Source of the DNA: an uncultured Clostridium sp.
GTDB lineage: Bacteria > Bacillota > Clostridia > TANB77 > CAG-508
Assembly: GCA_945877035.1 (NCBI GenBank)
Contig: CAMCQH010000013.1
Location: forward strand, 1 to 43,586
DNA length: 43,586 bases
Reading direction: 5' to 3'
In this document: positions 403 through 38,241 of the stretch, in pieces
Position numbering within the stretch: the stretch's first letter is position 1
How the letters are laid out: each line of letters begins with the position of its first letter
Position numbers and translations under genes: made by a program
The notes under the pieces: model-generated
The model's database searches: none
What the model was told of the DNA's origin: nothing
What the model saw: the letters and a program-made list of their open reading frames with translations, nothing else

Positions 403-651
403 GTTACAATTCACAATCCATTAATGTAGAAAAGTAAAACTTGAGAATATATAAATAAAATTATTTTTGACGAATGCGACCGGAGAGTATCTTAAAAAAT
501 CTTAAATTGCATGGTTGAGGGTGCGCAAAGTCGGAGAGACTCAAACATGCAATTTTAGATTTTTTTAGAGCTCGTATTGAGCCGAGGAAAAAATAATTTT
601 ATTTATATATTCTCAAGTTTTACGGCTTGGTTTAAAGTAGTGAATCGTAAC
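403..651. repeat. Palindromic element, copy 1 (nested long hairpins)
   Basis: The ends are GTTACAATTCAC (403-414) and GTGAATCGTAAC (640-651), inverted with one mismatch. Inside, 434-468 and 589-623 are perfect 35-base inverted arms. A second, imperfect stem pairs about 491-519 with 541-570. GC-richer unpaired patches separate the two stems (about 469-490 and 571-588). The right arm is followed by GGCT. No open reading frame of note lies inside. It fills most of the gap between the divergent genes at 300 and 760. Related copies are at 24430, 26204, 34163 and 38081. Confidence 0.75.
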
Positions 652-11975: not shown

Positions 11976-12006
11976 GTGTTTACAATTCAATTAGATTTTT
12001 AATATT

Positions 12007-24224: not shown

Positions 24225-24429
24225 ATATAACATTTTTATTACATTTATATTACTTTTTTGTAATATATTAAAAAATAATATTTTTACATAATTCTGCTAA
24301 TCTATATTATACAACAATCTTCTTATTTTTTCAATGTTTTTTTGACATTTTTATCCTTTTTCCTATCAATTTTAGTTTACATTTTCGTGTGACACTTCTT
24401 AACTAATATTCATATAATAATTATTATAT

Positions 24430-24620
24430 GTTACAATTCACAATTATTTATACTAGAGTAGCGCGAGAATGTACTAATTTATTGATATCGGAGCGATTCG
24501 TGGGGACCGTTTTAGAAAATGTATGAACGCATGTGAATTACATTTTCTTAAAAGGGGTAGCGTAGAAATCAATAAATTAGTACATTCGGGAGCGGACTGT
24601 TTTAAAATTGTGAATAATAC
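24430..24620. repeat. Palindromic element, copy 2
   Basis: The left end is GTTACAATTCACAAT (from 24430) and the right end ATTGTGAATAATAC (to 24620). Outer arms 24467-24486 and 24568-24587 are perfect 20-base complements. An inner stem pairs TTTTAGAAAATGTA (about 24510-24523) with TACATTTTCTTAAAA (24539-24553). GC-richer unpaired patches separate the stems. It shares the architecture and the GTTACAATTCAC end with copy 1, but not the arm sequence. It lies in the divergent gap upstream of both the surface operon and the gene at 24675. I see no gene in 24106-24674. Confidence 0.75.
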
Positions 24621-24674
24621 TATTATATTACATATATAAATTTTATTTTAATATATTATATTGAGGTGATATTA

Positions 24675-26203: not shown

Positions 26204-26292
26204 TTAATTTTATAGAGTAGTTCTAACTGTTGATATATTAAAATTTAAAAAATGAATTTTAATTTTAATATATCAACAATTAGAACGGCTTA
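26204..26292. repeat. Palindromic element, copy 3 (truncated ends)
   Basis: Arms 26220-26245 and 26261-26286 are 26 bases long with one mismatch and begin GTTCTAACTGTTGATATATT. The left flank TTAATTTTATAGAGTA and right flank GGCT are identical to copy 5 at 38081. The outer GTTAC ends are not recognisable. It lies between PBP2 and minC, inside the mre cluster, and could be transcribed. Confidence 0.75.
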
Positions 26293-28974: not shown

Positions 28975-28999
28975 TAATTCCACCTCTCTAAATATTTTG

Positions 29000-29815
29000 T
29001 TAATGACTTTTTATAACCAATACAGTATTTAGTTTGCTAAAATCTACCGCTGTTTCTACTAATGCATATCTATCAGTTATGTTTTTAGTATTAACAATTT
29101 TTTTAATAGTTCCTACATGTATTCCTTTTGGATAAATTCCACCTAATCCTGATGTTTCAACACTATCTCCTTGGACTAAATTTGCATCTGTAGGTATATA
29201 CATAGCTTTTAATTCTGAATTACTATCTAATGTCCCTTTGCAAACTATACTATCTTTGTTTGTGCTCATTAGGCAACTAATAGAACTTGATGTATCTATT
29301 ATTGTTCTTACTTTTGCAGTATTATCAGTAACAGATATAACATGTCCAACTAATCCTTCATCAGCTATAACAGTCATTTTTTCTTCTATACCATCGTTTT
29401 TTCCTATATTTATAACAATTGTTTTTGAATAATTACTTATATCTTTATTTATAATATAAGCAGGAACAGTTTTATACTCACCATATTTTTCTGTTAGCCC
29501 TAAATATTCTTTCAAAGTTTCATTTTCAGTTTTTATATTTTCAAGTTCTCTTAAAGATTGCTCTAACCTACTATTTTCTTCTTTTAACTCTTGATTTTCA
29601 TTTTTTAAATTATTTATATCTGTAAAAAATGTAGAATTTCCACTAACTTTATTTTTCAAATATGTTAATCCATTTTGCATAGGCATAACTAATTTATTAG
29701 CAATATTTTCAAAAAAAGATGTATTAGCTTCTCTATTAGAAAATATAACTATTAAAACTAAAATAACTATAGTAATAATAATTCCAAACAAACCACTTCT
29801 CTTATTCTTATGCAT
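29000..29815 (-). CDS. mreC: Rod shape-determining protein MreC
   Basis: A 271-residue protein with one N-terminal membrane helix (FGIIITIVILVLIVIF), a coiled coil (about residues 68-105: NNLKNENQELKEENSRLEQS...), and the MreC beta domains (NIGKNDGIEEKMTVI, GLVGHVISV, GLGGIYPKGIHVG). MreC links MreB to the extracytoplasmic wall synthases. GGGAGAGG precedes the ATG. A heptamer array separates it from mreB. Gap to mreD is short. Confidence 0.95.
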   Translation of the reverse strand: MHKNKRSGLFGIIITIVILVLIVIFSNREANTSFFENIANKLVMPMQNGLTYLKNKVSGNSTFFTDINNLKNENQELKEENSRLEQSLRELENIKTENETLKEYLGLTEKYGEYKTVPAYIINKDISNYSKTIVINIGKNDGIEEKMTVIADEGLVGHVISVTDNTAKVRTIIDTSSSISCLMSTNKDSIVCKGTLDSNSELKAMYIPTDANLVQGDSVETSGLGGIYPKGIHVGTIKKIVNTKNITDRYALVETAVDFSKLNTVLVIKSH

Positions 29816-34162: not shown

Positions 34163-34258
34163 GTTACAATTCACAGATAATACATTTTAATCAAATGAAA
34201 AGGTTAAATATTATATATTCAACCTTTTTTATAAAACTTAAAAACTGTGAATTGTAAC
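34163..34258. repeat. Palindromic element, copy 4 (short form)
   Basis: Perfect 14-base inverted ends GTTACAATTCACAG (34163-34176) and CTGTGAATTGTAAC (34245-34258) flank a central hairpin AAAAGGTT...AACCTTTT (about 34198-34229). It lies just after the coat gene stop at 34265 and may terminate that transcript. I see nothing else in 34065-34264. Confidence 0.8.
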
Positions 34259-38062: not shown

Positions 38063-38080
38063 ACTATCATCCTCCTTTTT

Positions 38081-38241
38081 TTACAGTTCATCCTTAATTT
38101 TATAGAGTAGTTCTAAATGTTGATATATTAATATTTTGCAGCAAAAGACCCAATGGTAGACCCCAGCTATGTTTTTTGCAAAAAATATTCATATATCAAC
38201 ATTTAGAACGGCTAATTTTTAATATTTTACTGAACTGTAAC
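38081..38241. repeat. Palindromic element, copy 5
   Basis: The right end TGAACTGTAAC (38231-38241) is the complement of the left end TTACAGTTCA (38081-38090). Arms begin GTTCTAAATGTTGATATATT (from 38110) and end at 38209, imperfect only at the tips. The left flank TTAATTTTATAGAGTA and right flank GGCT match copy 3. It fills most of the divergent gap between comEA and dacF, almost touching the comEA ribosome site. Confidence 0.8.

Follow-up and report, generated by a model that had tools for sequence, protein, structure and literature searches.

Palindromic loci and their ends

The window analysed here is the whole of contig C13, 43,586 nucleotides long, from the genome of an uncultured Clostridium sp. 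(G000; 1.70 Mb in 65 contigs, 80% complete). Five palindromic loci lie along it. Copy 1 (403-651, forward strand) is bounded by end motifs at 403-413 and 641-651, and contains outer arms (434-468/589-623) that match each other at 100% and inner arms at 490-519/540-569. Copy 2 (24430-24620, forward strand) has its left end at 24430-24440, a degenerate right end, the subterminal motif TAGAGTAG at 24454-24461, arms matching at 96% (24467-24489/24565-24587) and, between them, a conserved core with GTGGGGACC at 24500-24508 and GGGG at 24554-24557. Copy 3 (26204-26292, forward strand) is a remnant of the copy-5 subfamily, with TAGAGTAG at 26213-26220, arms matching at 93% (26220-26249/26257-26286) and unrecognisable ends. 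Copy 4 (34163-34258) has no defined orientation: its paired ends (34163-34173 and 34248-34258) belong to long end repeats (34153-34189/34232-34268, 76%) enclosing a short AAAAGGTT stem, and no core was seen there. Copy 5 (38080-38241, forward strand) has ends at 38080-38090 (TTTACAGTTCA, one mismatch) and 38231-38241, TAGAGTAG at 38103-38110 and arms matching at 96% (38110-38137/38182-38209); its left boundary thus lies one base outside position 38081, where the earlier note had placed it.

The arms do match within each copy, as that note had reported. Those of copies 3 and 5 are nearly alike (GTTCTAACTGTT and GTTCTAAATGTT), so that the window holds four hairpin types. The claim that all five loci share related ends or subterminal motifs stands for the ends of copies 1, 2, 4 and 5. 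No end-motif match with at most one mismatch is present in copy 3, and neither TAGAGTAG nor GGCT was found in copy 4; the five loci are therefore of unequal quality as family members. The subterminal motif takes the form TAGAAAAG in copy 1.

At up to one mismatch the end motif, GTTACARTTCA, occurs nine times in the window against 3.09 expected, a count reached in one of 100 shuffles, and seven of the nine matches are ends of copies 1, 2, 4 and 5. The remaining two, at 11979 and 13540, are partnerless; that at 11979-11989 (TTTACAATTCA, one mismatch) lies between two long ORFs and is possibly the remnant of another copy. The subterminal motif TAGAGTAG is found four times against 1.17 expected (three of 100 shuffles reached four), and three of these matches sit in copies 2, 3 and 5. 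Exact occurrences of GTTACARTTCA across the genome number 25, whereas the reversed control gives 4. Among relatives, the exact motif is present in 26 of 36 genomes, an occurrence that chance could account for in the case of an 11-mer, and a clear excess is confined to a few of them, for example G017 (58 against 3 in the control) and G023 (71 against 0). G023 belongs to a different family of the order, and at several of its loci (L144, L145, L147 and others) these ends enclose an unrelated palindrome, GTAGGGACAGCATTCATGCTGTCC or GTAGGGACACAATTTATTGTGTCC, and again both arms have been exchanged jointly. Viral contigs scanned for the end motif gave no match in one search and four in another, none of the four with a partner end; these were set aside as chance matches, three of them lying inside one phage ORF that looks capsid-like.

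A further palindrome at 2647-2726 has 30-nt arms (TCCTTTTGGGGACGTTTCTCAAATGGACAT, 93%) and a 20-nt spacer. Its GGGGACG..AATGGACA ends resemble the surroundings of the hairpin at L087, so that it probably belongs to a different MITE family.

Arms within subfamilies

Copy 1 has a full-length relative at 94% in its own genome (C16:686-934), together with partial relatives; the search gave 27 match rows, several of which are the opposite strand of the palindrome. Copy 2 has three relatives at 90-92% and copy 5 three at 91-96% in the same genome, and copies 3 and 5 are 95% identical over 43 bases. The arm differences among the window copies are mostly a matter of subfamily identity. This alters the earlier picture of arms specific to each copy: the arms differ between subfamilies, and for copies 1, 2 and 5 they are found again elsewhere in the genome, so that a shared arm does exist for these three within their subfamilies. 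Replacement of the arms at each insertion does not account for the difference between the five copies. Nor does the objection hold that a MITE would keep its arms, which are kept inside each subfamily.

Target-site duplications and a candidate transposase

Target-site duplications, proposed as a check in the earlier note, are present. Pairing of ends across loci from the window genome and its relatives gave 99 candidate pairs, of which 72 were kept after removal of those with an end match below 11/16 or nested in another. A perfect 8-bp flanking duplication accompanies 25 of the 72 elements, where shuffled pairings gave 0.39 and never more than 3, and the 8-bp flanks agree at seven or more bases in 37 of the 72 against 0.68; since the loci were picked by their ends, these figures test the boundary and not the abundance of the elements. 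For no other length between 3 and 12 do more than two of the 72 show a perfect duplication. Within the window only copy 2 has one, the 8-bp TATTATAT at 24422-24429 and again at 24621-24628 (a feature without strand), and this copy is outside the 72 because its right end is too degenerate. The flanking 8-mers agree at two of eight positions for copy 1, five for copy 4 and three for copy 5. End-only forms of 40 bp also exist, with a perfect duplication in L006 and agreement at six of eight bases in L009. The five loci are old copies, some of them decayed, of MITEs with GTTACARTTCA ends; for the family both these ends and the 8-bp duplication are shown.

Elements also occur inside one another. 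L136 of G017 (29-495) holds a 467-bp element with a perfect 8-bp duplication in which one hairpin sits inside another's arm, an arrangement suggestive of stacked modules. Ends of the GTTAAACTATTAGGGACGG type are nested within another pair of the same type in L299 (6990-7220) and L343 (6590-6950), and the inner element of L299 is without the core hairpin.

A transposase gene with near-identical ends, another check proposed, was found in the same genus. PF03050 matches occur in six of 36 genomes. In L209 (G006) two GTTACTGTTCAGACT ends, at 1356 and 3027, enclose a 496-aa IS66-type ORF, and the element is flanked on both sides by ATAAAATC, a perfect 8-bp duplication. The protein matches PF03050 with E=9.5e-29 and the NCBIfam IS66 model with 170.6 bits, below its 180-bit cut-off. 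Similar ends adjoin IS66 fragments in L211 and L215 (G005) and L213 (G002), which are partial; an IS66 gene in L210 (G020) has other ends, and a complete IS66 with such ends is seen in one of eight IS66 loci, that of L209. The window genome has no PF03050 or IS66 match in its assembly, an absence that is uncertain given 80% completeness, and the link to the transposase is consequently one of kinship and not of co-occurrence. An IS66 copy since lost may have mobilised the elements in trans. The elements are probably IS66-mobilised MITEs, as suggested by the one complete IS of the same genus with similar ends. ISL3 and IS6 elements likewise produce 8-bp duplications.

Other candidates were rejected. 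For IS256, ISLre2 and IS1595, scanning of 13 of 16 loci revealed no matching ends around the gene; L123, next to an IS256 fragment, contains a MITE-like pair of its own. End pairs or neighbours 1-7 kb apart in G017, G019 and G023 (L065, L069, L087, L139, L141, L142) enclose host-like ORFs, none of them transposase-like; L065 contains an ORF that by its look is tyrosine-recombinase-like.

A conserved hairpin core with variable stems

The core of copy 2 was found in three of 29 genomes of the genus: its own, G016 and G004. In G016 and G004 stem 1 has a different sequence, with the two sides still complementary in each case, and the G016 elements have different ends, GTAACTACTCA, with an 8-bp duplication that is perfect in L167 and agrees at seven of eight bases in L164 and L173. 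A wider scan with GGGGACCNTTYTAGAAAATGT gave at least 113 stretches, of which 80 (85 matches) were used; among the matches listed, all 80 are MAGs titled Clostridia, Clostridiaceae or Clostridium. From these 80 stretches, 74 copies had enough flank, 55 had distinct upstream flanks, and the alignment (A1) comprises 44 rows.

Across the 55 copies among the matches listed, the 20 bp of stem 1 pair at 96.5% within a copy and at 59.0% across copies, and for the outer 10 bp the values are 98.5% and 44.9%; since the helices were located by pairing, the within-copy figure is partly built in. Among the 44 aligned copies from the same matches, change on both sides affects 23 of 40 pairs against 17.5 shuffled, and 211 cells against 73.5, the cells being sequences and not events. 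The covariation score is 0.286, a value reached in none of 500 shuffles and about three-fold the shuffled 0.087; the slid controls give 0.044-0.069. Covariation therefore exceeds chance, and is also expected of folded DNA or of arm copying. Around the one core the outer arms are locus-specific. The core itself is subject to turnover: within the window genome, three further copies (L396-L398) keep GUGGGGACCGUUC and GAAUGGGG with a different inner stem and different outer arms. As judged by eye, other subfamilies have loops such as GAATGYGAYYGGAG and ATTGAGCCGAG in common, and also a 1x1 U.U mismatch in the second stem.

Model R1, whose source alignment includes copy 2, scores that copy at 24464-24612 with 121.3 bits. 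When the order was searched, at least nine of its 95 genomes gave matches, which fall in one family and three of 26 genera, nine of the matches being in the window genome; the filters were strict, so that these counts are lower bounds. The reverse strand of copy 2 is likewise hit by R1 (E=2.9e-5), as is the unrelated palindrome at 2652-2743 (E=7.8e-4), and its hits to subfamily C (7.1e-6 to 4.4e-4) are for this reason no proof of kinship.

The core is not tied to one type of end. Among the 55 core copies in the matches listed, six have both ends of one type (four GTTAAACTATT, one GTTACARTTCA, one GTAACTACTCA), two have decayed ends, and 47 are without recognised ends of the three types at the threshold used. 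Six of these 47 do have an end on either side when it is read at two mismatches, of the GTTAAACTATT type in five and of the GTTACARTTCA type in one, which indicates that some endless copies are decayed members. The stems of the 47 are intact: a permissive extension over 1337 positions counts 109 mismatches. L408 has an apparent further end type, TTGCCAAGAGGGACGG, recognised by eye. Given the 47 endless copies and the several end types, the hairpin is treated here as a conserved unit not tied to this MITE, and it is at this independence from the ends that a pure IS66-MITE reading is weakest. In the copy-2 subfamily, what is conserved is the hairpin core and not the ends: loops and core persist as the long stems are replaced, one arm together with the other.

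How the arms change

Paired change can be followed between close copies. Twelve clusters (854 pairs) show 47 double changes from one Watson-Crick pair to another against about 22 after row shuffling, and 42 double changes to other states against 28.5; as the non-pair class is also above the shuffled value, misalignment inflates both. Single changes number 247. The 47 comprise 26 transitions and 21 transversions, and 12 of them come from cluster D1, where it is the apical part that varies between members. In the 1375 stem positions of the 55 core copies among the matches listed there are 10 G.U, 5 A.C and 29 other non-pairs.

One such locus is a gap flanked by convergent genes, whose orthology is supported on both sides (88-98%). 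The arms here are AGCCAATATGATATATTTA in L301 and L338 and ACAAAAGTATGTATTTA in L326 and L388. Each left arm pairs with the right arm of the same copy, the stem read containing no more than one mismatch, and the core is nearly identical. We read the difference as a matched indel of about 8 nt, a reading that depends on how short AT-rich flanks are aligned; such a change is poorly explained by single-base compensation. Mixed cases occur as well: L318 and L359 differ by a wobble and a paired change, L336 and L340 by an unmatched indel. The earlier proposal that both sides have changed together stands between subfamilies, between species and at this one orthologous gap, the core having been kept.

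Apparent empty orthologous sites are seen in the window at about 28987-29039 (for L295 and L329) and about 10400 (for L314), with flanks 69-80% identical and gaps of 52 and -19 bases.

RNA or folded DNA

In all 14 orientable consensuses the better fold is that of the motif strand, with a margin over the complement of between 0.2 and 16.6 kcal/mol; these have loops in common, so that the result is nearer one observation than fourteen, and the strand totals leave out the seven of 21 consensuses that could not be oriented. G.U outnumbers A.C by 26 to 11 in the 14 oriented consensuses (p=0.02), by 56 to 59 the two are alike in recent single changes, and in the 55 core copies among the matches listed they stand at 10 to 5 (p=0.30) under strand-symmetric scoring. 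Strand evidence for RNA is thus weak. Among the same matches, 53 of the 55 copies are located outside any ORF of at least 80 aa. A cis-regulatory role with one fixed orientation was not supported, the 43 of 55 copies scored with simple ORF calling showing no preferred direction relative to genes. Rfam release 15 gave no match in the window at the gathering score, and in the relatives' stretches only a tRNA in the flank and sub-threshold plant and animal miRNA models. We lean towards a putative transcribed structured RNA.

Possible origins of the paired stems

The account held with slightly better than even confidence is that these are old IS66-moved MITEs in which the copy-2 fold is selected and the stems are, in addition, re-copied by template switching. 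The loci would be non-autonomous elements moved by an IS66-family transposase acting on GTTACARTTCA ends, with interiors made of long folded hairpins of several subfamilies. Selection for the fold would maintain stem pairing, and many paired changes could arise in one step if one arm were copied from the other by replication template switching in the hairpin. The fold may be a putative transcribed structured RNA carried by several transposon types, or alternatively a DNA strand that has to fold during transposition. A bolder version, which seems a real possibility while falling somewhat short of even, is that of an undescribed structured RNA or folded ssDNA module that hitchhikes in unrelated transposon types (with GTTACARTTCA, GTAACTACTCA, GTTAAACTATT and perhaps TTGCCAAGAGGGACGG ends) and also stands alone in uncultured Clostridia, its loops near-invariant and its stems so frequently rewritten through template switching that an individual locus can possess its own arms. 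Both folding-driven conversion and selection for structure, raised in the earlier note, are still live; its observation is partly confirmed and its interpretation partly supported.

Selection on the fold could also act through stepwise compensation only, each point mutation being compensated singly with no arm copying. The covariation around an almost invariant core, the intermediates in L318/L359, the excess of G.U over A.C in the oriented consensuses and the 26 of 47 double changes that are transitions, passable through G.U, all agree with this. Transversions, however, have no route via G.U, and 21 of the 47 are of this kind; G.U occupies only 10 of 1375 stem positions, and the stretch of about 8 nt matched at one gap, between species with flanks 88-98% identical, is hard to reach singly. 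Stepwise compensation as the whole explanation is therefore unlikely. The locus-specific outer arms around one core, and its presence in several end types, would instead be expected if the core hairpin inserted into, or recombined between, existing palindromes such as MITE ends or terminator hairpins, the outer arms then being those of the site and the core the piece that moves. At the L301 gap, L087 indeed holds a different core inside arms having AGCCAATAT in common with L301. This sharing of nine bases is a single case, however, the L087 hairpin lies between inverted ends of its own, and the apparent empty site for L295 in the window has no such palindrome; capture of this kind is judged quite improbable.

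It may finally be supposed that the hairpins are passive parts of ordinary MITE subfamilies with separate fold-back origins, shared loops and joint changes being due to descent and alignment error. Arms are common to the members of each subfamily, single changes have no strand bias (56 to 59) and the copies no preferred direction relative to genes. Against this, one core has different arms across many genomes and inside one, it is near-identical at an orthologous gap where the arms differ, and stems are intact where ends are unrecognised. This possibility, already strained in light of the covariation, has little to recommend it.

Relation to known elements and significance

The elements themselves are of a known kind, MITEs probably driven by IS66; the unusual part is a conserved core with co-rewritten stems. 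They resemble IS66 insertion sequences and derived MITEs in their 8-bp duplications and in ends near-identical to those of an IS66-type element of the same genus, and differ in their long-hairpin interiors and in having one core that also occurs with other or unrecognised ends. There is also a likeness to integron attC sites and REP palindromes, which combine few conserved unpaired bases with variable arms; GTAG stands at some hairpin feet. The 8-bp duplications and IS66-like ends set the present elements apart from both. REPs moreover measure 20-40 bp according to the accessible part of one report (PMC3733652), whereas the hairpins here span roughly 70-450 bp.

The Bacillus cereus bcr repeats, as described in the available portions of two papers, are dispersed and intergenic; some are MITE-like, others have a secondary structure that is conserved, and roughly half of the copies are expressed (PMC3446304, PMC2267715). 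The present elements are likewise dispersed, intergenic and MITE-like with conserved secondary structure; they have other sequences and hosts. Those portions contain no mention of stem turnover around a fixed core (PMC3446304, PMC2267715). Template switching is a published source of paired hairpin changes, and the RNA hairpins treated in the accessible text of that work have stems made or kept paired by arm copying, as may apply here; they belong to RNA genes, whereas the present hairpin is multi-copy and transposon-borne (PMC8794818). No account of a conserved core with stems rewritten in step was found in the literature searched, nor an Rfam release 15 match in the stretches searched, and among the titles listed for the end motif none was related.

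The maintenance of stem pairing under sequence change is usually studied on single RNA genes. Here one MAG holds at least 20 core copies (20 of the 80 loci listed), and these, with the orthologues and the near-invariant core, amount to many parallel trials for judging between template switching and stepwise compensation. Should the core be an RNA, uncultured Clostridia would contain an unnamed class whose spread has been helped by transposons. These elements may constitute a new family of structured RNAs, and they offer a natural record of hairpin evolution.
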